Shown: in pieces, positions 2,740-63,951 of the stretch | How the letters are laid out: every line of letters starts with the position of its first letter | Position numbering within the stretch: the stretch's first letter is position 1 | Origin: Flavobacterium album | Lineage (GTDB): Bacteria; Bacteroidota; Bacteroidia; Flavobacteriales; Flavobacteriaceae | Length of the DNA: 64,000 nt | NCBI RefSeq assembly: GCF_003096035.1 | Contig: NZ_CP029186.1 | Location: 3,516,001 to 3,580,000 of the forward strand | Direction of reading: 5' to 3' | Program-made: the position numbers and the translations under genes | The notes under the pieces: generated by a model | Told to the model about the DNA's origin: nothing | The model's input: the letters and a program-made list of their open reading frames with translations, nothing else | The model's database searches: none

Positions 2740-3534
2740 ATGGAATTAATAGCAGGCTATACCGGAGCTTTTATGATCGGCCTTACACTTGGGCTTATGG
2801 GAAGCGGCGGCTCTATACTTACAGTTCCGCTTCTGGTATATGTATTTGGAATTGACCCGGTAATTGCTACTGCCTACTCGCTCTTTATCGTAGGCACTAC
2901 GTCAGCGGTTGGCGCTGTTAAAAATTACATTAAAGATAACGTATCTGTAAAAACAGGATCGATTATCGCAATCCCTTCTTTCCTTTCGATATATCTTACC
3001 CGAAGGTATATCGTAACACGATTACCCGAAGAGTTTACCCGGGATAACTTTACAATAACGCGGCATACCTTTATAATGACCGTATTTGCGATTGTCATGC
3101 TGTTAGGTGCTGCATCGATGCTCTTAGCAAAAATTGACAACAGGGAAGACCAGATACCAAAAAAGATCAATTATTCTTTTATACTGCCCTGTGTAGCGGT
3201 AATAGGTATTGTTATGGGGCTTGTGGGTTCCGGGGGCGGCTTCCTCATTATCCCCATGCTGGTTTTTTTTGGAGGCCTCACAATAAAAAAATCCATAGGC
3301 ACATCATTATTCATTATCACAATCAATTCATTAACGGGTTTTGCGGGCGACCTGCATGCTATAAATATTGACTGGCATTTTCTTTTATTAATTACGATAA
3401 TCTCAGTTTTTGGTATATTTGCAGGGACTTATCTGCACAGGTATGTGAATGAGGGCCAGCTAAAAAAAGGATTCGGCATTTTTATCCTTGTTATGGCCGT
3501 ATTCATAATAGCAAAAGAAATGACAGGTTTTTAA
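2740..3534 (+). CDS. TauE/SafE family sulfite/organosulfur exporter
   Basis: A 264-residue integral membrane protein with about eight hydrophobic segments in two homologous halves, each opening with a Gly-rich motif (GLTLGLMGSGGSILTVPLLV near residues 15-35 and MGLVGSGGGFLIIPMLV near 158-175). This duplicated pattern defines the TauE/SafE family, which moves sulfite, sulfoacetate or related sulfur anions across the inner membrane. It lies 38 bases upstream of a persulfide dioxygenase-rhodanese gene on the same strand, so the two probably form an operon. That pairing supports a sulfur-detoxification role. The ion actually transported is inferred. Confidence 0.9.
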   Translation: MELIAGYTGAFMIGLTLGLMGSGGSILTVPLLVYVFGIDPVIATAYSLFIVGTTSAVGAVKNYIKDNVSVKTGSIIAIPSFLSIYLTRRYIVTRLPEEFTRDNFTITRHTFIMTVFAIVMLLGAASMLLAKIDNREDQIPKKINYSFILPCVAVIGIVMGLVGSGGGFLIIPMLVFFGGLTIKKSIGTSLFIITINSLTGFAGDLHAINIDWHFLLLITIISVFGIFAGTYLHRYVNEGQLKKGFGIFILVMAVFIIAKEMTGF

Positions 3535-3572
3535 CGGGATTGAACACAACAGAAGGCTAAAACACACACATT

Positions 3573-4979
3573 ATGAAAATCGAACAAATTTATACCGGCT
3601 GCATCGCACAGGCAGCTTACTATCTGGAGAGCAACGGGGAAGCTGCCATCTTTGACCCCCTGAGGGAAGTACAGCCTTATATTGACCGCGCTGCCAAAGA
3701 CAACGCTAAGATCAAATATATCTTTGAAACCCATTTTCATGCCGATTTTGTCTCGGGCCACCTGGACCTGGCAAAGAAAACAGGCGCGCAGATCGTATAC
3801 GGGCCAACTGCCAAGCCTGATTTTGAAGCGCTTATTGCTGCTGACGGACAGGAATTTACCCTGGGCAATTATACCATTAAAGCCATACACACACCGGGGC
3901 ACACGCTGGAAAGCACTTGCTACCTGCTGAGTGAGAACGGTGAGCCGACAGGCATTATCACCGGCGATACCTTATTTATTGGTGATGTGGGCCGCCCTGA
4001 CCTTGCGCAGGCCCTAACCGAAGAGCTGACACAGGAAGTTCTTGCCTCGCACCTGTATGATTCGCTGCGCAACAAGATAATGGTATTGCCGGACAGCCTT
4101 ATCGTATACCCGAGCCATGGTGCCGGAAGCGCCTGTGGAAAAAACATGAGTAAGGAAACTACCGACCTGCTTGGTAACCAGAAAAAAACAAACTATGCGC
4201 TTAGGGCCGATATGACCAAAGAGGAATTCACGAAAGAATTGCTTGACGGGCTTAGCGCTCCCCCCGCCTACTTTCCGCAAAATGTAATGCTGAACATACA
4301 GGGTTATGAAAGCCTGGATACAATACTGAAAAAAGGTTCAGTTCCTTTGACTGCATCTGAATTTATGGCTGCAGCAAATGAAAAGGACGCATTAGTGCTG
4401 GATGTAAGGCACGAAAACGACTTTGTAAAAGAACATATCCCGGGCTCGATATTCATTGGCCTTAACGGAACATTCGCCCCATGGGTAGGCGCGCTCATAA
4501 TGGATGTTAACCAACCCCTGGTTCTTGTAACGCCTGAAGGCATGGAAGAAGAAACCGTTACAAGGCTGGCGCGCGTGGGCTTTGACAATACGCTTGGCTA
4601 CCTGAGCGGAGGCCTCAGCGCGTGGAAAGAAGCCGGCTTTGAAACTGACAGCATCCGATCCATATCTCCTGAAGAGTTTGCTGACAGGCTGGAATCGGAA
4701 GAGAAAATAGTGGTTGATTCCAGGAAGCCGGGCGAATTTAACGGTGGGCATGTTATTAATGCGGTAAACATTCCGCTTGACTTTGTAAACCAGCAACTGG
4801 CAGAAGTGCCAAAAGAGGAAGACTTCTATTTGCACTGCGCCGGAGGATACCGTTCGGTAATCATGGCATCTATACTTAAAGCGAGAGGCTACCATAACAT
4901 GATCAATGTTGAAAAAGGCTTTGGAGGTATAAAAAACACATCGGTAAAAACCACTTTCATACAGCCGGCCTGCTCATAA
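3573..4979 (+). CDS. CstB-like persulfide dioxygenase with two rhodanese domains
   Basis: A 468-residue cytoplasmic protein. The N-terminal metallo-beta-lactamase domain (about 1-245) has the HxHxD motif (H54, H56, D58), TPGH with H110 and GDT with D132, as in ETHE1-type nonheme iron persulfide dioxygenases. A Cys (C188, in GAGSACGKN) matches the position of the reactive Cys of CstB. Two rhodanese domains follow (about 260-360 and 365-468). Only the second keeps an active-site loop Cys (C422 in HCAGGYRS); the first has Thr/Pro-rich sequence there, so it looks non-catalytic. The family oxidises persulfides to sulfite and/or thiosulfate. The linked TauE/SafE gene could export the sulfite. Specific products are inferred. 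Confidence 0.9.
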   Translation: MKIEQIYTGCIAQAAYYLESNGEAAIFDPLREVQPYIDRAAKDNAKIKYIFETHFHADFVSGHLDLAKKTGAQIVYGPTAKPDFEALIAADGQEFTLGNYTIKAIHTPGHTLESTCYLLSENGEPTGIITGDTLFIGDVGRPDLAQALTEELTQEVLASHLYDSLRNKIMVLPDSLIVYPSHGAGSACGKNMSKETTDLLGNQKKTNYALRADMTKEEFTKELLDGLSAPPAYFPQNVMLNIQGYESLDTILKKGSVPLTASEFMAAANEKDALVLDVRHENDFVKEHIPGSIFIGLNGTFAPWVGALIMDVNQPLVLVTPEGMEEETVTRLARVGFDNTLGYLSGGLSAWKEAGFETDSIRSISPEEFADRLESEEKIVVDSRKPGEFNGGHVINAVNIPLDFVNQQLAEVPKEEDFYLHCAGGYRSVIMASILKARGYHNMINVEKGFGGIKNTSVKTTFIQPACS

Positions 4980-7917: not shown

Positions 7918-8847
7918 TTAGTTACTATTGCTCTCTTGCGCAAAGGCGAGGGAAAGCGCTTCGACAGACATTGATAGTGAAGTAAAAAAGCGAAGGGTAT
8001 CAGACTCGGGAATCTCCAATCCCATTGTCTTCCTTCCTACCACCCATAGAGCCGAACCGTTGCGCTGTATCTTGCCATGAAGTGCCGGTATATACTCCGT
8101 AAGTGGTTTTTCCTCAGGGGTAACAGTAAGATAGGTGATATAGGTAATGCCTGTAAAAAGCCTTGTAACTTCCGTGAGGCTATCCAATGACATATTGCTT
8201 CCGAGGTAGATGCAGTTGCGTCCTGATGCGGTAATTTCATACTGAAGGTAGAGCAGGCCAAGTTCATGGATCTCGCCAAAAGGGAGAAAAAGTACAAATG
8301 CCGGCTGCTGGCCCTTTTTGATCTTTCGGCTGGAGGCCGCAGTCTGCTGAAGTACAACCATCCTGATGAGATTGCTTACAAAATGCTCATGGGCAGGCTC
8401 AATGGTGGCTGTCTGCCACATGAGCCCTATTTCTTCCAGCAAAGGGAGGAAATAGCGCATAAACACTTCCCGGAACGGCATCTTCGAGAGCAGCTGCTCT
8501 GTCATATCAATAAAGGATGCCTGGTCAAAGGTCATCATCGCAAGCTTGTATTGGTGGACAACCGGCGCAATATCAGTACGCGTACTTCTCACTTCGGTCA
8601 CCAGGACCTCGATCTGGCGCGCATCCATCGCTGCGACCCTGGATATTTTAAAGCCGTGACCCGTAAGCAAAGTCACATTCAGCAGCTTACGCAGCTCATC
8701 CAGCGTATAGGTCCGGCGCATGCCCGACTCCCCCCGCCCGGGCGTAAGCAATTCGTAGCGCTTCTCCCACATACGGATCGTATGGGCTTTAATACCTGAT
8801 AGATTTTCGAGGTCGCCTATTGAGAATTCTGTCTTTATATTGTTCAT
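7918..8847 (-). CDS. CarH/LitR-like B12-dependent MerR regulator
   Basis: The product is a 309-residue regulator. The ATG ending at 8847 (MNNIKTEFSIGDLENLSG) is preferred over one 12 codons upstream because MerR proteins begin close to the helix-turn-helix. The MerR HTH occupies about 8-75 (HTIRMWEKRY). A helical cap domain follows with a Trp-nine-residues-Glu-His motif (W144, E154, H155). A Rossmann-type cobalamin domain has ExHxxG (E192, H194, G197). Both motifs match CarH, where adenosylcobalamin senses light and releases DNA. The SxG segment downstream is not evident. It is divergent to a photolyase operon, its likely target. Light sensing is inferred from family knowledge. Confidence 0.9.
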   Translation of the reverse strand: MNNIKTEFSIGDLENLSGIKAHTIRMWEKRYELLTPGRGESGMRRTYTLDELRKLLNVTLLTGHGFKISRVAAMDARQIEVLVTEVRSTRTDIAPVVHQYKLAMMTFDQASFIDMTEQLLSKMPFREVFMRYFLPLLEEIGLMWQTATIEPAHEHFVSNLIRMVVLQQTAASSRKIKKGQQPAFVLFLPFGEIHELGLLYLQYEITASGRNCIYLGSNMSLDSLTEVTRLFTGITYITYLTVTPEEKPLTEYIPALHGKIQRNGSALWVVGRKTMGLEIPESDTLRFFTSLSMSVEALSLAFAQESNSN

Positions 8848-8886
8848 TATAACTTGATTTAAACGGAGCGGTTCCGGAAACAAAGT

Positions 8887-8910
8887 AACAAAATTTTGTT
8901 AAACAAAAAC
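8887..8910. promoter_or_regulatory. Operator-like palindrome between the CarH-like gene and the photolyase operon
   Basis: A perfect 14-base palindrome, AACAAAATTTTGTT (8887-8900), runs into TTAAACAAAAAC (8899-8910). The latter repeats the 11-mer found in the fasciclin promoter. It lies between two divergent starts and just upstream of the -33 element of the photolyase operon, a reasonable place for the MerR protein to bind. Confidence 0.45.
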
Positions 8911-8920
8911 TTAAAATAAG

Positions 8921-8950
8921 TTGAACAAATTATCTGTTTATGTATATTTG
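8921..8950 (+). promoter_or_regulatory. Promoter of the photolyase operon
   Basis: TTG (8921-8923) and TATATTTG (8943-8950) with a 19-base spacer match the Bacteroidota consensus. The operon's first ATG is at 9011, giving a leader of roughly 55 bases that contains further TTTGTTAAA/TTTAAAAC segments. Confidence 0.7.
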
Positions 8951-9010
8951 TTAAAGTTTAAAACAAATAATTCTCCAAACACATACTTCTTTAAACAGCA
9001 GGTTAGCTAA

Positions 9011-10093
9011 ATGGAATTTCCGGTGTCATATAAACACATAATTAGTCGTATCGATGATTTCGATCCACTGGGTTATGAACACACACGAAACTTTGAAGAT
9101 GGCGGCATCTCCGGGCTCTCCCCTTACCTGTCACGCGGGGTGATAAGCACGAAGCAGCTTTACCTAAGACTGGCAACCCGCTATGGTGAGCCGGCTTGCA
9201 GCGGATTCCTGAAGCAGCTGCTTTGGCGCGAATATTTTCAGCAGCGGCAGGTCGGCGGATTGCTTACAGCAGCGCCCCACCCCGACACAAACCGTACAAG
9301 GGGTGTGCCTGTAGCCGTGCTTCGTGGCGTAACCGGCATCGAAGCTATTGATGGGGGAATCAGAAAATTATATGCTGGAGGCTATATGCACAACCATGTC
9401 CGGCTTTATACAGCTGCTGTATGCGGGTTAGCAGGTTATCGTATTGAAATGCCTTCCCAATGGATGTACTACCATCTTTTTGATGGCGATATAGCAAGCA
9501 ATACGGGTTCGTGGCAGTGGGCTGCGGGAATGCTTACAGCAAAGAGGTACATTGCCAACCAGGACAATATTAACCATTATTGCAGGACCAGCCAGAGCGG
9601 TACTTTTCTTGATATGGATTATGACGCACTTGACCGGCTGGCCGGAATTGATGCACTGAACGAGTGTACCGAGATTGCCTTCAGCACTGTGCTTCCGGTA
9701 ACACCGCTGCCAAAGCTGGATTCCCGCCCTGTAGTGCTTTATACCAATTATAACCTTGATCCACTGTGGCATTGTGATGGTGATTTTAACCGTGTGCTGC
9801 TTTTGGACAGCGATCATTACAGGTCATATCCGGTAAGCGAAAAAGTACTGGAGTTTACCCTGGGCCTGGCTATAAATATTGACGGCCTACAGGTATATGC
9901 AGGCCGCTACAGCGACCTGAGAGCCGCCTATCCGGAAAATCGCTTCATTGTCAGGGAGCATCCGCTTTTCAGTTACCCGGGCACAGAAATTGAGCCGCGT
10001 GAATGGCTTGCCGGACGCGTAAACAACGCAGCGGGATCGTTCACAAAATATTTTAAAGCAATACAAAATGAATACCATGGAAGATTTATCTAA
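9011..10093 (+). CDS. Photolyase-like protein with FAD domain first (apparent domain swap)
   Basis: A 360-residue protein. Residues ~15-215 match the C-terminal FAD-binding domain of DNA photolyases/cryptochromes: LLWREYFQ, GYMHNHVRLYTAA (near 124) and DGDIASNTGSWQWAAG (near 157), the last being the strongest signature. The usual N-terminal alpha/beta domain is absent ahead of it. Instead residues ~238-345 form an alpha/beta-looking segment (RPVVLYTNYNLDP, RVLLLDSDHY, SEKVLEFTLGLA) resembling that domain placed at the C-terminus. FAD binding is likely; repair or signalling activity is unknown. It is the first gene of the operon controlled from 8921-8950 and overlaps the next gene by 26 bases. 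Confidence 0.8.
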   Translation: MEFPVSYKHIISRIDDFDPLGYEHTRNFEDGGISGLSPYLSRGVISTKQLYLRLATRYGEPACSGFLKQLLWREYFQQRQVGGLLTAAPHPDTNRTRGVPVAVLRGVTGIEAIDGGIRKLYAGGYMHNHVRLYTAAVCGLAGYRIEMPSQWMYYHLFDGDIASNTGSWQWAAGMLTAKRYIANQDNINHYCRTSQSGTFLDMDYDALDRLAGIDALNECTEIAFSTVLPVTPLPKLDSRPVVLYTNYNLDPLWHCDGDFNRVLLLDSDHYRSYPVSEKVLEFTLGLAINIDGLQVYAGRYSDLRAAYPENRFIVREHPLFSYPGTEIEPREWLAGRVNNAAGSFTKYFKAIQNEYHGRFI

Positions 10094-10781
10094 GCATTTT
10101 ATTATAGCAGGCGCCAGCAGTGGCATAGGCTTGAGTATGGCACGTGCGCTGACGGCTTCCGGCCACCGGGTTACCGGGTTGAGCCGAACCCCGGGCGAGT
10201 TAGAGGGCACTCCCGGCTACACCCATGTCTTTCACGATTTCCTGTCTCCGGATCCGCTGCCTGCAATTGCCGGGCCGGCTGACGGAATTGCTTACTGCCC
10301 CGGAAGCATAACGCTGAAGCCCCTTGCACGCCTGTCCCGCACTGACATTACAAACGATTTTGAACTTAATGCCATGGGAGCATTCCTGTTTGTAAGGCAG
10401 TATATTGAAAATATGAAGGATGCGGGGTCGGGCGCAGTGCTGCTTTTCAGTTCGGTAGCCGCTTCAACAGGGCTTCCTTACCATGCGAGCATTGCCATGG
10501 CCAAAGGAGCGATTGAAGGCCTCGTAAAAGCATTGGCTGCCGAGCTTGCTCCTCAAATCAGGGTGAATGCGATTGCCCCGTCACTGACAGATACGCCTTT
10601 AGCAAAGCAACTGCTAAATTCTGATGCTAAAATTGCGGCTAACGCTGAGCGCCATCCGCTAAAATCAATTGGCAGGGCTGAGGATATTGCAGAGCTGGGA
10701 TGCCAGCTCCTAACAGGTTCGCCATGGATGACGGGCCAGGTGATTTCCGTTAACGGAGGGCTCGGAACCATACTACGATAG
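10068..10781 (+). CDS. SDR-family protein lacking the catalytic tyrosine
   Basis: A 237-residue short-chain dehydrogenase/reductase-fold protein. The NAD(P) motif is GASSGIG near residues 15-21, with a SSVAAS segment for the catalytic Ser and the late motif IRVNAIAPSLTDTPLA. At the YxxxK site it reads HASIAMAKGA, so Tyr is replaced by Ile while the Lys remains; normal SDR catalysis is doubtful. The start at 10068 lies inside the preceding gene, and it ends 2 bases before the next, indicating translational coupling within the photolyase operon. It may bind a dinucleotide in a light/repair function; that is inference. Confidence 0.85.
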   Translation: MNTMEDLSKHFIIAGASSGIGLSMARALTASGHRVTGLSRTPGELEGTPGYTHVFHDFLSPDPLPAIAGPADGIAYCPGSITLKPLARLSRTDITNDFELNAMGAFLFVRQYIENMKDAGSGAVLLFSSVAASTGLPYHASIAMAKGAIEGLVKALAAELAPQIRVNAIAPSLTDTPLAKQLLNSDAKIAANAERHPLKSIGRAEDIAELGCQLLTGSPWMTGQVISVNGGLGTILR

Positions 10782-10783
10782 CC

Positions 10784-12196
10784 ATGAAAATACTACTCAC
10801 CGGCGCAACCGGATATATTGGGCAGCGGCTGCTTCCTGTGCTTCTGGAAAGTGGCCACCAGGTGGTATGCCTCGTTCGTGATGCCAAACGCTTTGACATA
10901 CAGCGTTATGGAGAAGGCGTTGAAGTTTGGGAAGCGGACCTGCTCACCCATGATAGCCTGAAGGATATACCGCGGGATATTGATGTTGCATACTACCTCG
11001 TTCATTCCATGAGCGCAGTAGGCGATTTTATGGCACGGGAAGAGCTGTCGGCAACGAATTTCAAGAAGGCTGTGGCTGCCACGGCGGCAAAGCAGGTTAT
11101 TTACCTTACCGGAATCGCCAACCAGGAAGACCTCTCCCCCCACCTGCTCTCCCGCAGGCGCGTAGAGGAGATACTATCTTCAGGCCCGGTGCCCCTTACA
11201 GCGCTTCGCGCCGGTATAATTGTGGGTTCGGGAAGCGCGTCGTTTGAAATCATTAGGGACCTTGTGGAAAAGCTTCCGGTAATGATCGCTCCAAAATGGC
11301 TGATGACACGCTGTCAGCCGGTTGCCATCAGGAATGTAATAGAATTCCTTTCGGGCGTGATGCTGAAGCCCTGGGCCTTTGGCAAGCACTATGACATCTA
11401 CGGACCCGACGTGCTGACCTACAAGCAGATGCTTGAACAATTTGCGCACGAGCGCGGCCTTACACGGCACATTATTACACTGCCGGTCATGACACCGAGG
11501 CTATCATCTTACTGGCTATATTTCGTGACATCTACTTCCTACACACTGGCCAGCCACCTGGTAGACAGCATGAAAATTGAGGTGGTAGCCCATGAAAATG
11601 ACCTTGGCAGCAGGCTTGGCATTACGCCTATACACTACCGTGAGGCTATACGTATGGCTTTTGACAAGATTGAGCAGAACATGGTACTCTCAAGCTGGAA
11701 AGATGCTATGGGCTCACGGGCCGCGGCAGGAAGGCTATCCGAGCATGTGGTAGTACCGGAATATGGTGTTTTCACCGATAGTAAAAAGCTGGCTACAAAA
11801 GACCCGGAGAAGGCGGCAGAACGCATTTTTGCGATTGGCGGACACCGCGGATGGTATTATGCCGACTGGTTGTGGAGTTTCAGGGGCTTTCTTGATAAAC
11901 TCTTTGGAGGGGTTGGCCTCAAGCGCGGCCGAAAGAATGCCGCAACCATCAATGCAGGAGAATCACTCGATTTCTGGAGGGTTATCTATGCTGACCGTAA
12001 AGAAAAACGTTTGCTGCTCTATGCCGAGATGAGGCTCCCGGGTGAAGCCTGGCTGGAGTTTTCGGTAAAGGACAATATGGTATACCAAACCGCTACCTTC
12101 CGCCCCCTTGGGCTTGGCGGCAGGCTGTACTGGTATTCGGTGTTACCTTTCCACTGGTTTATATTTAAGGGAATGATTAAAAAAATTGCAGGCTAA
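10784..12196 (+). CDS. NAD(P)-binding extended-SDR protein with DUF2867-type C-terminus
   Basis: A 470-residue protein. The N-terminal NmrA/epimerase-like Rossmann domain has GATGYIGQRLLPVLL (residues 6-20) and YYLVHSM, typical of this subfamily. The C-terminal ~130 residues (GGHRGWYYADWLWSFRGFLDKLFGG, then LDFWRV and LLLYAEMRLPGEAWLEF) match DUF2867. Such two-domain proteins are widespread beside bacterial photolyase and pigment genes, but their substrate is not established. It starts 3 bases after the previous stop and is followed 5 bases later by a TIGR03643 gene, so it is firmly part of the operon. Confidence 0.88.
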   Translation: MKILLTGATGYIGQRLLPVLLESGHQVVCLVRDAKRFDIQRYGEGVEVWEADLLTHDSLKDIPRDIDVAYYLVHSMSAVGDFMAREELSATNFKKAVAATAAKQVIYLTGIANQEDLSPHLLSRRRVEEILSSGPVPLTALRAGIIVGSGSASFEIIRDLVEKLPVMIAPKWLMTRCQPVAIRNVIEFLSGVMLKPWAFGKHYDIYGPDVLTYKQMLEQFAHERGLTRHIITLPVMTPRLSSYWLYFVTSTSYTLASHLVDSMKIEVVAHENDLGSRLGITPIHYREAIRMAFDKIEQNMVLSSWKDAMGSRAAAGRLSEHVVVPEYGVFTDSKKLATKDPEKAAERIFAIGGHRGWYYADWLWSFRGFLDKLFGGVGLKRGRKNAATINAGESLDFWRVIYADRKEKRLLLYAEMRLPGEAWLEFSVKDNMVYQTATFRPLGLGGRLYWYSVLPFHWFIFKGMIKKIAG

Positions 12197-12201
12197 AAGT
12201 T

Positions 12202-12480
12202 ATGGAAAAGAGCTACATTACCGAACAAATCGACCGGATCATTGAAATGGCCTGGGAAGACAGGACGCCCTTTGAGGCGATTGAAATCCAGTTCGGCCTG
12301 AATGAATCGGGCGTGCGGGCACTGATGAAAAAAGAATTGCGGTTCAGCAGCTACAAACGCTGGCGCAGGAGAGTGGAATCCTGCAGTACGAAGCACGCGC
12401 GAAAGCGTAATCCGGGCATCTCCCGTTTTAAGTGCGACAGGCAGCGGGCTATAACAGGAAACAAGATCAGCAAAAGATGA
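12202..12480 (+). CDS. TIGR03643 family protein
   Basis: A 92-residue basic protein. Its first ~55 residues ([26 protein letters not shown], then [17 protein letters not shown]) match the small TIGR03643 family, which repeatedly accompanies cryptochrome/photolyase genes. The predicted helix-turn-helix look ([15 protein letters not shown]) suggests nucleic-acid binding. The tail is rich in Arg/Lys ([17 protein letters not shown]). Its stop overlaps the next start (ATGA), indicating coupled translation. Molecular function is unknown. Confidence 0.85.
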
Positions 12481-12638
12481 GAGGCGTAAAAAAATCCGAC
12501 CTGCCTTCAAAAACATGCATTGTATGCGGGCTTCCTTTTACATGGCGGAAAAAGTGGGAGAATAACTGGGAAAATGTAAAATATTGCAGCAAGAGATGCG
12601 CGAACAGCAAAAAACAGCAAAAAGATACCGCACCCTGA
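12477..12638 (+). CDS. DUF2256 small zinc-finger-like protein
   Basis: A 53-residue protein starting at the ATG that overlaps the TIGR03643 stop. It holds two Cys pairs, [14 protein letters not shown] and YCSKRC, that would form a small treble-clef or zinc-ribbon-like site, as defines DUF2256. An in-frame start 15 codons upstream is less likely because the coupled ATGA start fits the operon. DUF2256 is recurrently found with cryptochrome/photolyase genes; its role is unknown. The photolyase gene begins 55 bases before its end. Confidence 0.85.
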
Positions 12639-14152
12639 GGCTTATCCTGGGTGACCAGCTTAACGGCGCGCACAGTTGGTTTGCGAACCGTAGCGATGAC
12701 GTGCTCTATGTGATGATGGAGGTGCGAAGTGAGACCGACTACGCATGGCACCATATCCAAAAAGTTTGCGCATTTTTTGCAGCGATGGAACGCTTTGCAG
12801 TCAGGCTGCGCCACGATGGCCATGATGTACTGTACCTGACCCTGGACAACCCCGGAAATGAGCAGAGCATTACCCGCAATTGCAGCGTCCTGATGCAGCG
12901 CTACGGCATCTCGCGTTTTGAATACCAGCTGCCCGACGAGCATAGGGTAGACCAACTGCTTCGGGATTATTGTGAGTCGCTTGATATTGAGTGGCAAGCT
13001 TTTGACACAGAGCATTTTTACACAGCCCGTGATGAAATGGGGAATTTCTTCCGTGGCACGAAAACCATTTTGATGGAAAACTTTTACAGGCATATGCGCA
13101 AAAAGCACCATGTCCTTATGGAAGGCGATATTCCCGCAGGAGGCGTTTGGAACTTTGACACTGAAAACAGGAAAAAACTGCCAAGGGGCCACAGGCCACT
13201 GCCACCGCTGCTCTTTAGCAATGACCTTACCGTTCAGAAAGAGCGTATTGAAGCAGCCGGTGTTAAGACAATCGGTACTATGGATCGCGGCTACTGCGGC
13301 TGGCCACTGGACAGGCAGCAGGCACTGGAGCTGCTCTCGCATTTTGCAGATAACTGTCTTCCCCTGTTCGGTACCTTCCAGGACGCCATGCAGGCGGGAG
13401 AATGGTCCTTATACCATTCGCGCCTTTCGTTTTCACTCAATACAAAAATGATATCGCCGCAGGAGGTAGTTGACAAGGCTCTATCGGCCTGGGAAAACGG
13501 CAATGGAATAGCCATCAACCAGGTGGAAGGCTTTGTGCGCCAAATACTGGGATGGAGGGAGTATATGCGCGGGCTTTATTGGATGGTTCCCGAACTTAAT
13601 ACGCTAAATTTCTTTGGAAACACGCGAAAACTTCCCAACTGGTACTGGTCGGGAGAAACAAAGATGAACTGCCTGAGGCAATCTGTAAAGCAATCCCTGG
13701 AGTATGCTTATGCACACCACATACAGCGACTCATGGTAACCGGAAATTTTGCGCTCATTGCAGGTATCAACCCCGGCGAGGTCGATGCGTGGTACCTTGG
13801 GATATACGCGGATGCCCTTGAATGGGTAGAGCTTCCTAATACGCGGGGAATGAGCCAGTTTGCCGATGGTGGCATTACGGGATCGAAACCCTACGCTGCC
13901 AGTGCCAACTATATCGATAAGATGAGTGATTACTGCAAGGGCTGCCAGTACAATAATAATTTACGCCACGGCGCCAGCTCCTGTCCGCTGAATAGCCTTT
14001 ATTGGAATTTTTTCGACCGCAACCGCACAAAGCTGGAGGGCAATCCCCGCATAGGTATGGCATACAGGATTTGGGACAGGATGGAACCGGCAGAAAAAGA
14101 AGCGACACTCAGGCAGGCAGCAGTCTACCTTGCAATGATAGATCAGCTTTAG
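12584..14152 (+). CDS. FeS-BCP class cryptochrome/photolyase (PhrB-like)
   Basis: A 522-residue protein opening with [12 protein letters not shown], the N-terminal motif of the iron-sulfur bacterial cryptochromes and photolyases. The antenna-type alpha/beta domain is followed by the FAD-binding helical domain ([34 protein letters not shown]). Four Cys expected for a [4Fe-4S] cluster are present: one near 362 (KMNCLRQ), two near 450 (DYCKGCQ) and one near 466 (SSCPLN). Characterised relatives repair (6-4) photoproducts. Start codons at 12584 or 12596 both lie inside the DUF2256 gene. It is the last gene of the operon; no clear terminator follows. Confidence 0.93.
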
Positions 14153-14482
14153 ATATCGCACTTTCAGCGTTATTACGTCAAAGTTTCGGGCACGGAGGCG
14201 TAAATTTTAGAACGCAATCTTTGGTTTTTTAATTTGTGTAATCCTTTGTAAATTATTAGCAAATACCGTAGCACCTATGCTGCTGATTTTAAGAATACTA
14301 CATCAACCTCCCCTCCTTTTCTCCAATTAATCTTTAACAATTGTTAATTATCAGGTAAGCCGTTCGAAATGTATGAGTGTAAGCGTTACTTTTGTTATAA
14401 TTTTAATTACCCGGATTGCTAGTTATGGAGTACGGATATTGAGAAGCCCGGCATTCCGATTATTAAATATAAATCACCTGAA
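14153..14482. other. Noncoding gap between photolyase operon and kinase, with a weak promoter
   Basis: No open frame with coding character is seen in these 330 bases. TACTTTTG at 14387-14394 matches the plus-strand -7 consensus and could serve the kinase, though its -33 region lacks TTG and the leader would be about 85 bases. A short palindrome, TTAACAATTGTTAA, lies near 14333-14346. No terminator of the usual hairpin-T form is visible after the photolyase gene. Confidence 0.4.
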
Positions 14483-16012
14483 ATGGACGAATTAGGAGAA
14501 TTCATTGAGAAATTTTTTGATACCGGAGCTTTCCCGCCCCGATGGTACTGTGGGAAATGGAGCGAATTTCACGGATGGCTCTACATTATTTCAGATCTGG
14601 CTATCTGGGCAGCCTATTTCACAATTCCGCTGCTACTGGTCAGTTTTATCAGAAAGAAAAAAGACCTGCCTTTTCCAAAGATCTTCTGGCTATTCGTAGC
14701 TTTCATCGTTGCCTGTGGCGCAACACACCTTATCGATGCGGTGATTTTCTGGTTTCCTATTTACCGGGTAAGCGCTTTCGTCCGACTTATTACCGCAATC
14801 GCCTCCTGGGCCACAGTGGTCGCCTTGTACAGGATCATACCTAAAGCGCTACAGTTACGGACCCCTCTCGAATTGGAAAAGGAGGTTGCCCTTCGCACTA
14901 CGGAGCTTCATAACACCGTGGCCAGGATGCGGTTCATGGCTGATGCCATGCCACAGATTGTATGGACCGCAAAACCCGACGGAACTGTCGACTATTTCAA
15001 TAAGCGTGCCTGCGATTATACTGGCAAGGAAGAATCGCAATTACACGGATGGGGATGGGTTGAGCTGATTCACGCTGAAGACAGGGAGTCTACAGGTAGT
15101 CTTTGGAATAAAGCAATAGCCGACAGGCAGCCATTCGAGGCTGAAAACAGGATCCGATCAGTTGATGGCAAATTTTACTGGCACCTCACACGTGCCATTC
15201 CCCAATACGGTGAGGACGGAAGCGTGGAATGCTGGGTAGGCACCGCAACGAATATTGAGCAGCAGAAGCGCACCGCAGTACTTTTGGAGCAGATGGTGGC
15301 AGAGCGTACCGGACAGCTGGAGCACGCAAACCGCGAGCTGAAGCAGAGCAACCAGGATTTGGAGTTTTTTGCCGCGGCAGCATCTCACGACCTTCAGGCT
15401 CCGCTGCGTACGGTAAGCACCTATCTTTCGATGATTACTCAGGGTGTGGGCGAGCCTATTGAAGAACGCACATTATTGCGGATACAAAAGGCCGCTGCAG
15501 CAACAACACGCATGGGCGGTCTGATAAACAACCTCTTGCAGTTTTCACGGGTAAACGCCTCGGAACTGGTACTTGCTACTGTTGACCTGAATCAGATTGT
15601 TGGCAATACTGCCACAATGGTTGGGGAGACTGATTACGGCAAAACGGTCTCAATAAATGTAACGCCAATGCCTACCGTTAAGGGCGATGCTTTACTGATC
15701 GGGCAGCTGATCCAAAACCTTGTTATTAACGGCATTATTTATAATAACAGCGATACCGCGGTTATCGCTATCGGCGGATACAACACAGAATCCGATACGG
15801 TGATCACCGTGCAGGATAACGGCATTGGCATTGCAAGGGAGCACCAGGAAAAGATATTTGCCGCCTTTACCAGGCTGGGAAGCGATATAAAAGGAACCGG
15901 TCTCGGACTTGCCATCTGCAAAAGGATTATGGATAAGCACAATGGCACCATCCGGCTGGAATCGGATCAGGGGAAAGGCACCATTTTCTATATTTCGTTC
16001 CCAAGGTCATAG
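14483..16012 (+). CDS. Ethylene-receptor-like sensor histidine kinase (PAS, HisKA, HATPase)
   Basis: A 509-residue membrane kinase. The first ~125 residues contain three hydrophobic helices with D38, Y45, I48, P49, I75, C78 and H82. These correspond in identity and exact spacing to plant ETR1 D25, Y32, I35, P36, I62, C65 and H69, the Cu(I)/ethylene site (ISDLAIWAAYF, VACGATHLI). A PAS domain follows (~145-260), a coiled segment (~262-295), a HisKA domain with phosphoacceptor H302 (ASHDLQAPLR), then HATPase boxes (DNGIGIA, GTGLGLAICKRI). No receiver domain is fused and no response regulator is adjacent. Ethylene binding is inferred from residue conservation. Confidence 0.9.
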   Translation: MDELGEFIEKFFDTGAFPPRWYCGKWSEFHGWLYIISDLAIWAAYFTIPLLLVSFIRKKKDLPFPKIFWLFVAFIVACGATHLIDAVIFWFPIYRVSAFVRLITAIASWATVVALYRIIPKALQLRTPLELEKEVALRTTELHNTVARMRFMADAMPQIVWTAKPDGTVDYFNKRACDYTGKEESQLHGWGWVELIHAEDRESTGSLWNKAIADRQPFEAENRIRSVDGKFYWHLTRAIPQYGEDGSVECWVGTATNIEQQKRTAVLLEQMVAERTGQLEHANRELKQSNQDLEFFAAAASHDLQAPLRTVSTYLSMITQGVGEPIEERTLLRIQKAAAATTRMGGLINNLLQFSRVNASELVLATVDLNQIVGNTATMVGETDYGKTVSINVTPMPTVKGDALLIGQLIQNLVINGIIYNNSDTAVIAIGGYNTESDTVITVQDNGIGIAREHQEKIFAAFTRLGSDIKGTGLGLAICKRIMDKHNGTIRLESDQGKGTIFYISFPRS

Positions 16013-16083: not shown

Positions 16084-17043
16084 CTACAGCGACTGCGCAA
16101 TAAAAAGGTATAGCGGCATCCCTATGGTGATATTGACAGGGAATGTAACGCCCAGCGCCATAGGCAGGTAAAGCCCGGGATTGGCTTTTGGCGCGGCGAT
16201 CTTCATGGCCGCCGGCACTGCGATATAGGAAGCGCTGGCCGCAAGTATTGCGAACATAAAGCGGTTGGCAACGTCATTTGTAACTGCTGCACTCGCTATC
16301 GCCACTATGGCGCCGTTGAACAGCGGAACCACTACCCCAAAAGCGAACGGGAACCAACCCTCCCTGAATAGCGAGCCAAGCTTCCTGCCGCTAACAATTC
16401 CCATATCCAGCAGAAAGATAGCAAGGAACCCCTTGAACAGGTCATTTGTAAATGGCTTTATCCCCTGTGCCTGCTCGGCACTGGCAAGGTAACCAATGAC
16501 AAGGCTGCCCAAAATAAGCAGTACCGAGCCATTGGTAAGCGAGTGGTGCAATACCCTGCGCTTGCTGAATGCATCGCCACTTTTATCGTAAAGGGAAATA
16601 AGCACCAGCCCGGCAATGATGGCCGGCGACTCCATAAGCGCCATAATAGCGACCATGTGCCCGCTGAGGTGCATTCCCTGCATTTCGAGATAGGACGCGG
16701 CAGTCACAAACGTAACTGCGCTCACAGAACCATAAGCCGCCGCAACAGCGCCTGCATCATGCAGGTTGAATTTCCTTTTAAGGATAAAGAAGAGATAGAC
16801 AGGAACAAGCGTTGCCAGGGATAGCCCGAACAGCATAGACATCAGTATCTCGGGGGTAAATGCCTCATGGGAGAGTTCCTGCCCTCCTTTGAACCCGATG
16901 GCAAAAAGCAGGTAAAGCGAAATGAATTTGGAAGAATTGGGTGGTATTTCCAGATCGCTCCTGAGATAAACTGCTGCGATGCCAAGTACAAAAAAAAGCA
17001 GTGCCGGATTGGTAAGGTTGTCTATTAGTAAAGTAAAGTTCAT
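16084..17043 (-). CDS. sbtA: Sodium-dependent bicarbonate permease (SbtA family)
   Basis: A 319-residue inner-membrane protein with about ten hydrophobic helices. The sequence follows the SbtA family throughout: NPALLFFVLGI at the start, LYLLFAIGFKGG, AAAYGSVSAVTFVTA and ALMESPAIIAGL. Cyanobacterial SbtA imports bicarbonate with Na+. Heterotrophic homologues are common, with the substrate less certain. No SbtB (PII-like) partner gene lies beside it. It is separately transcribed, convergent with the kinase gene. The start gives the standard family N-terminus. Confidence 0.88.
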   Translation of the reverse strand: MNFTLLIDNLTNPALLFFVLGIAAVYLRSDLEIPPNSSKFISLYLLFAIGFKGGQELSHEAFTPEILMSMLFGLSLATLVPVYLFFILKRKFNLHDAGAVAAAYGSVSAVTFVTAASYLEMQGMHLSGHMVAIMALMESPAIIAGLVLISLYDKSGDAFSKRRVLHHSLTNGSVLLILGSLVIGYLASAEQAQGIKPFTNDLFKGFLAIFLLDMGIVSGRKLGSLFREGWFPFAFGVVVPLFNGAIVAIASAAVTNDVANRFMFAILAASASYIAVPAAMKIAAPKANPGLYLPMALGVTFPVNITIGMPLYLFIAQSL

Positions 17044-63195: not shown

Positions 63196-63951
63196 CTATG
63201 TTGTCTTGCTTTTTATCCAGTATTGTTTTCTGTAGGCCTCAGGGCTGAGGCCGGTAAACTTTTTAAATGTTGCGCAAAAATTGGACGGGCTGTAAAAACC
63301 CATATCTGCTGCCACTGCAGAAACAGGGAGGTCTGTGGCTTCAAGAAGCAGTTTTGATTTTTCGATTTTCCTGTTGAGTATATAACTATAAGGAGTTGTA
63401 CCCATAAATTGCGAAAACATTCTGATCATATGGTGTTTTTTCCACTTTGTAAGCGGCACGAGGGTGTCAATATCTATTTTCTCGGAAATATGATCGTCTA
63501 TGTACCGTACCACATCTTTTATACGCAATGGGGCATCCTGGTTAGTAGTGTCTTTAGCCCTTGTTACATCGATATTTTTATATCTGTAATTATTTAAAAC
63601 CACAGCAACATTAGTTTTAATATCGGCAGCTTTAAAAGGCTTTATTATGATACCATGGGGCCTGGTTTCCTTTATTCGCTCGATAGTTAATTTGTCACTA
63701 TACGATGTAATAAATATATATGGAAAATTATCCTTTACTAAAAGATCGAGGGCAAGGTCTATTCCATCTTTACTTCTGCCTAAGTTTATATCCATTAACA
63801 CCAAGCTGGGCTTTTGAGACTGAATTACCTTGAGGGCATCTTCCACATTAGTGCTATGTTGTATCAATTTATAGCCTTCATCCAATAATATTTCCTGTAA
63901 GTATCTGGCTACAACATAGTCGTCTTCAACAATCAATATTTTCACACACAT
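63196..63951 (-). CDS. Response regulator with receiver and AraC-type DNA-binding domains
   Basis: A 251-residue two-component regulator. The receiver domain (1-125) has the acidic pocket (VEDD at 8-11), phosphoacceptor D54 (VLMDINLG), conserved Thr/Ser (FITSYSD) and Lys (IIKPF). The AraC domain (~145-245) has two HTHs (VPLTKWKKHHMIRMFSQFMG and VSAVAADMGFYSPSNFCATFKK). No histidine kinase is adjacent in the window. It lies immediately upstream of the small-anchor/T9SS/fibre gene cluster, its likely target. The start (ATG ending at 63951) could also be a GTG three codons in. Confidence 0.92.
   Translation of the reverse strand: MCVKILIVEDDYVVARYLQEILLDEGYKLIQHSTNVEDALKVIQSQKPSLVLMDINLGRSKDGIDLALDLLVKDNFPYIFITSYSDKLTIERIKETRPHGIIIKPFKAADIKTNVAVVLNNYRYKNIDVTRAKDTTNQDAPLRIKDVVRYIDDHISEKIDIDTLVPLTKWKKHHMIRMFSQFMGTTPYSYILNRKIEKSKLLLEATDLPVSAVAADMGFYSPSNFCATFKKFTGLSPEAYRKQYWIKSKTT

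Follow-up and report, generated by a model that had tools for sequence, protein, structure and literature searches.

Flavobacterium album encodes a histidine kinase whose N-terminus resembles the ethylene-binding domain (EBD) of the plant receptor ETR1, and the locus thus raises the question of whether this kinase is a bacterial ethylene receptor. We analysed the gene within a window of 64,000 nucleotides (contig NZ_CP029186.1, positions 3,516,001 to 3,580,000 of the source genome, G000), to which the positions below refer. The parts of the gene are as follows.

14483..16012, plus strand: EBD-PAS-histidine kinase gene, 509 aa; ATG start, intact open reading frame
14549..14551, plus strand: codon of C23, the conserved N-terminal Cys of bacterial EBDs (CxxW), by alignment
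14570..14857, plus strand: EBD, residues 30-125, Pfam ETR1_N (PF25487)
14564..14656, plus strand: long helix 1, residues 28-58, with D38, Y45, I48 and P49 (AlphaFold model, hydropathy)
14675..14746, plus strand: long helix 2, residues 65-88, with I75, C78 and H82 (AlphaFold model, hydropathy)
14714..14728, plus strand: codons C78 to H82, predicted Cu(I) ligands by homology with C65 and H69 of ETR1
14762..14854, plus strand: long helix 3, residues 94-124, with R101 at the place of ETR1 K91 (model, alignment)
14864..14947, plus strand: helical linker between EBD and PAS, residues 128-155 (AlphaFold model)
14924..15271, plus strand: PAS domain, residues 148-263 (Pfam)
15362..15559, plus strand: HisKA, residues 294-359 (Pfam)
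15386-15388, plus strand: codon of H302 in SHDLQAPL, the likely phospho-acceptor (alignment)
15683..16006, plus strand: HATPase_c, residues 401-508 (Pfam), with N, G1, F and G2 motifs intact by eye

The kinase matches PF25487 far above chance (E 4.1e-36): the match spans profile positions 2-97 of 97 and scores 123.6 bits, where the cut-off is 27. It was the only such match in the 3.98-Mb genome, and the 14 control genomes gave none. An AlphaFold (AF2) model of the monomer without copper, built from an alignment of 82 sequences including the window protein, had a mean pLDDT of 86.7 and a pTM of 0.50; three membrane helices were predicted by this model and by hydropathy peaks, followed by the linker helix (128-155), PAS, a DHp helix pair and a CA domain. 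As in two-component sensor kinases, HisKA and HATPase_c come with a phospho-acceptor His and ATP motifs. The best 50 of 1265 rows in a fold search were sensor kinases and phytochromes, and a PDB sequence search with residues 1-125 gave no match at E 1. Together, sequence and model show a predicted three-helix membrane domain carrying the complete ethylene site, then a helical linker, PAS and a kinase core in which the H, N, G1, F and G2 boxes are all intact.

Ethylene binding in ETR1 needs seven residues: D25, Y32, I35, P36, I62, C65 and H69. The sequence-only reading had claimed all seven at the exact ETR1 spacing, and our residue check and alignment bore this out: D38, Y45, I48, P49, I75, C78 and H82 are present (7/7), separated by the same steps (7, 3, 1, 26, 3 and 4). 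The ETR1_N match, the seven residues, the AF2 model and the tree described below likewise uphold its reading of the protein as a Bacteroidota histidine kinase with an ethylene-binding domain. The pair aligned with C78 and H82 is reported to hold Cu(I) in ETR1 (PMC6586836). We then aligned EBDs from 120 listed database proteins and from genome-search loci, keeping matches of at least 85 residues (170 reduced to 164 rows besides ETR1); this set leans to the window's relatives, includes the window twice and was compared with a single ETR1 sequence. All seven residues occurred in 144 of the 164 rows, so the full set is the rule for the family, and C78 and H82 were each kept in 163. C23 was kept in 158, and Arg101 stands where ETR1 has Lys91. 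The N-terminal Cys of CxxW is also found in the Azospirillum brasilense kinase AzoEtr1, but no ETR1 Cys aligns with C23; a role for C23 in a disulphide or a copper relay is possible.

The remaining 20 rows lacked the full set, three of them through gaps or fragments, and EBD family members with altered ligand-site residues thus exist. Such proteins lend some weight to a different reading, in which the ETR1 fold and metal site are kept but another signal is sensed: another small unsaturated gas or volatile, CO, O2 or the copper supply. No ethylene-linked gene was noticed near the kinase, and an ACC deaminase search of the source genome turned up three weak matches, all below the cut-off, a result that we count against the receptor reading. 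Against sensing of another signal stand the seven retained residues, including D38, at which Asn is reported to lower the affinity of ETR1 about 100-fold (PMC13012798), and the response of AzoEtr1, which has the same architecture, to 100 ppb ethylene (PMC11819568). We regard the sensing of another signal as unlikely.

We asked how widely such domains occur. The whole-protein search covered 5.8 billion proteins, with 8000 candidates scored and 6699 kept; we used the best 120 of the 6699, some of which have no EBD and match through PAS and kinase. The 26 nearest of those listed are 49-59% identical to the window protein. An 80-locus contig scan, run with two patterns drawn respectively from the kinase core and the EBD, matched most loci mainly through PAS and kinase; the 20 of 39 genomes positive for an EBD are therefore a biased sample and give no frequency. 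In a sample of 296 genomes drawn across the phylum, ETR1_N matched above the cut-off in 18, the window's included. Published receptors also come from organisms other than plants and cyanobacteria (PMC11819568 and PMC7700396), and the rarity implied by the earlier description of such receptors as best known from plants and cyanobacteria is out of date. Titles and abstract openings from a collection with few subscription papers yielded no Bacteroidota ethylene receptor.

Within the genus, EBD genes are rare and patchy: ETR1_N matched in 11 of 398 genomes (10 over the cut-off; 387 without a match), and the EBD is uninterrupted in eight (G000, G676, G029, G519, G697, G540, G016 and G422). The EBD of G541 (L105, G541:C34:22955-23242) contains three in-frame stops and looks like a decayed copy, and that of G580 is split over two contig ends. 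This pattern would suit a gene that is a recent or decaying acquisition without function, but the frame and kinase motifs of the window gene are intact, and a genus relative (G676) carries the gene at the same place. Moreover, Asp at 38 and Arg at 101 occur in the window protein and all 26 of its nearest listed homologues (27/27; P0001-P0027), as expected for a site under selection. Loss of function accordingly strikes us as highly improbable.

The phylogeny of the domain was examined with 66 chosen EBDs over 176 columns, including 13 database proteins other than the window's; we excluded L019 and fragments, and the tree is unrooted. The window EBD fell inside starred branches of 5, 6 and 16 rows, one within the other and made up entirely of Bacteroidota and of database proteins grouped with them. 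These sit in a starred branch of 35 rows, 34 of which are of these kinds (support 98/99 for 16 rows and 99/97 for 35). The exception is an Azovibrio MAG, whose contig is 96% identical over 14.4 kb to a Bacteroidetes MAG contig, so mis-binning in one of the MAGs is likely. The two contigs (L062 and L060, respectively) carry the same EBD gene. The sole plant row, one sequence lying on a very long branch, and all nine cyanobacterial rows fall across a starred branch from the window EBD. Twelve Bacteroidota rows lie on that plant and cyanobacterial side, and Bacteroidota EBDs are therefore not one group on this tree. The label "plant-type" given to the domain by the sequence-only reading is not supported by this result: the EBD clusters with Bacteroidota and database rows, and the bacterial CxxW motif and the Arg at the place of ETR1 Lys91 also speak against the label. 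From its sequence, the window gene looks like an ethylene receptor kinase of bacterial lineage, a further representative of a family known in many bacteria and not a displaced plant gene.

The surroundings of the gene suggest a further possibility. Its neighbours are as follows.

7918-8883, minus strand: protein with MerR HTH and B12-binding_2 domains, next to the photolyase genes (Pfam)
9011-10093: FAD_binding_7 photolyase-family gene, upstream of the kinase (Pfam)
12584..14152, plus strand: photolyase-related protein (DPRP), upstream neighbour (Pfam); not found beside the kinase in G676
14153..14482, plus strand: gap of 330 bp between DPRP gene and kinase; one TANNTTTG box, 14387-14394
16084..17043, minus strand: Sbt_1, Na+-dependent bicarbonate transporter superfamily, convergent neighbour (Pfam); kept in G676

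The MerR-B12-binding protein resembles a CarH/LitR-type light-responsive repressor. With this regulator and the photolyase-family genes upstream (7918-14152), the kinase could belong to a light or DNA-damage circuit in which the EBD is one input; SynEtr1, which joins an EBD to a phytochrome-like domain and senses both ethylene and light, offers a precedent (PMC6508509). The gene does lie 3' of the photolyase genes, as the sequence-only reading had stated, but the link to them was not conserved in the syntenic orthologue in G676 (60% identity). There, the downstream order is kept, while upstream lie DUF6122, FMN reductase, DUF2459 and other genes, and no ORF in 8.9 kb upstream matches the window's photolyase genes. 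Of 61 genus genomes, 33 have a DPRP homologue, counting the window's, and the stretches read at 13 other loci among these contained no EBD (that of L139 ends 0.4 kb after the gene). In the window itself, 330 bp separate the DPRP gene from the kinase; this gap and its TANNTTTG box suggest that the kinase has its own promoter, although the motif occurs in the window at chance level, as did the hits of a promoter and terminator scan. We consider membership in a light circuit very unlikely.

Downstream and convergent with the kinase lie Sbt_1, Sua5, DUF6671, a small ORF and isocitrate dehydrogenase, followed by what we take to be a LysR-like and then a TetR-like gene. Of 101 genus genomes, 34 carry Sbt_1, and 16 of 29 Sbt_1 loci read outside the window have both Sua5 and DUF6671 beside it. 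Within flanks of about 1.5 kb (less in L169), none of these 29 loci has an EBD kinase, and two have another kinase there, without an EBD. Thus, the position of the EBD kinase is tied to the downstream block in two genomes, and its adjacency to photolyase genes is seen in the window only. Elsewhere in the window (2740-4979), a TauE exporter gene adjoins one for a metallo-beta-lactamase-fold protein with rhodanese domains, a pair that likely serves sulphur or persulphide handling.

A histidine kinase would be expected to act on a response regulator. The absence of a neighbouring regulator, noted earlier, held up: a receiver search found no receiver domain within 47 kb of the kinase, the closest being the following.

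63196-63951, minus strand: AraC-type regulator, nearest receiver (receiver search)

A partner, if any, would therefore act in trans. Context was read for 29 EBD ORFs, among them the window's and the near-copies L060 and L062. A response regulator immediately follows 15 of these, two carry a receiver inside their own protein and 12, including the window's and G676's, have neither arrangement. The count of 12 may be too high, because the receiver profile, built from 7 of the 15 adjacent regulators, missed a known receiver in the window; for two of the 12, L020 and L037, Pfam showed no receiver in the neighbours that follow on the same strand. Receivers fused to EBD kinases occur in other genomes of the phylum and among database proteins (L126, L127, P0205, P0209 and P0217). 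The source genome has 57 receiver matches and 46 HATPase_c matches. One receiver, G000:98030-98413, the genome's best match to the regulators of the Asn/Leu-type kinases described below, was set aside as a partner: a PAS kinase of its own lies next to it, an arrangement kept in G676, and so it is not an orphan. Four others, on frames of up to 198 aa with no HATPase_c (PF02518) match within 10 kb (G000 about 2256283, 2463975, 2654970 and 3136125), are candidates only.

The eight uninterrupted genus EBDs differ at the places of D38 and R101: two are Asp/Arg (the window and G676), five are Asn/Leu and one is Asp/Lys (G029). According to a 2026 review, a conserved lysine is the possible salt-bridge partner of this Asp in ETR1, and natural variants exist (PMC13012798); the pair has been named as D25 and K91 (PMC11819568). 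The Asn/Leu five (L003 and L101-L104) form one clade in the tree with L011, from another family of the class. The L011 kinase, too, has Asn for Asp38 and Leu for Arg101. Like the window's, the genus Asn/Leu kinases are EBD-PAS-histidine kinases, of about 520 aa and 28-31% identical to it; unlike the window's, all five (L119-L123) have a single-domain response regulator directly downstream, and their H-box reads SHNLRSP (two rows aligned) rather than SHDLQAP. The G029 kinase (L002, L118) shares with the window's an uninterrupted EBD and the Asp, but has about 403 aa, Lys at the R101 place, a position in another clade and a response regulator directly downstream. The classes therefore do not map simply onto the possession of a regulator.

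The Asn/Leu type also occurs among database proteins. Of the 120 proteins listed for an Asn/Leu query, 118 matched the EBD profile, 113 of them over enough length for alignment: the D38 place was Asn in 88, Asp in 15 and another residue or a gap in 10, and 83 combined Asn with the other six residues intact. The 37 aligned proteins nearest the query (P0121-P0159) were all Asn/Leu. Across 191 rows below 85% identity, drawn from two similarity searches and genome samples and mostly of one clade, we counted 112 D/basic, 51 N/L, 10 D/L, five S/L, three N/basic and ten others. By rows, a repeated co-change of the two sites looked striking. On the tree, in seven independent pairs (starred branches) differing at D38, R101 had changed the same way in about three, the opposite way in none and not at all in about four (p 0.25). 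Because one clade dominates the rows and the pairwise test gives this p value, we do not regard co-change as established. We put forward, tentatively and as a doubtful rather than a favoured proposition, that a single genus holds natural classes of ethylene receptor differing at the two residues thought, in ETR1, to link binding with output. Should Asn reduce affinity here as reported for ETR1, these would be natural high- and low-sensitivity receptors, and Asp-Lys coupling would be dispensable in nature. Whether affinity or signalling depends on the Asp-Lys pair has been asked for ETR1, and the classes would offer a direct test.

Taken together, our results make it probable that the window kinase senses ethylene at the membrane as a bacterial EBD-PAS-histidine kinase, in the manner of AzoEtr1. 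We count against this reading that the sole tested receptor compared end to end is only 28% identical and that R101 replaces ETR1 Lys91. By homology, the kinase would be a dimer with one Cu(I) per protomer, ligated by C78 and H82, and ethylene would bind at this copper. The resulting change would pass through D38, R101 and then the linker, reach the PAS and DHp helices, and alter, probably lower, phosphorylation of H302; SynEtr1 and ETR1 lead to the expectation that ethylene inhibits the kinase (PMC11819568). The phosphoryl group would pass from H302 to a response regulator presumably encoded elsewhere, since none lies near the kinase gene, and the output, by analogy with two bacterial precedents, may be control of the cell surface, biofilm or motility.

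Few studies have examined ethylene in microbes (PMC11819568). An intact receptor amid 387 of 398 genus genomes without a match offers natural pairs with and without the gene. The window gene leaves the picture of the origin of plant ethylene receptors unchanged, and its interest is moderate, lying mostly in the comparison of this receptor with the Asn/Leu type.

Of the known systems, Arabidopsis ETR1 shares with the window's kinase a three-helix EBD and the same seven residues. It differs in having GAF, Lys91 and the disulphide cysteines Cys4 and Cys6 where the window's has PAS, Arg and the CxxW Cys, and it signals mainly by a route independent of its own histidine kinase (PMC6586836 and PMC11819568). 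SynEtr1 (slr1212 of Synechocystis PCC 6803) is likewise a bacterial EBD histidine kinase signalling by phosphotransfer, but has a phytochrome-like light domain as well as a known regulator and small RNA (PMC11819568 and PMC6508509); nine other cyanobacterial EBDs lie elsewhere in the tree from the window's. AzoEtr1 is reported to be a functional ethylene receptor that affects biofilm formation and root colonisation (PMC11819568). We identified it as the 525-aa protein starting MFGGVEAF on A. brasilense Sp7 plasmid NZ_CP012915.1, which agrees with the published AzoEtr1 in length, start, D35, C75, H79 and K98 (PMC11819568). It came from a protein search of plasmids with Azospirillum records among the top rows; of at least 5000 records, at least 138 had one place that covered at least 80% of the query. 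AzoEtr1 comes from another phylum, has a response regulator directly downstream and carries Lys at the R101 place, whereas the window's kinase (509 aa) has no such regulator and carries Arg. The two proteins nevertheless share the order ETR1_N-PAS-HisKA-HATPase_c, align end to end (E 6e-48) and have in common the key residues, the N-terminal Cys and the CxxW motif.
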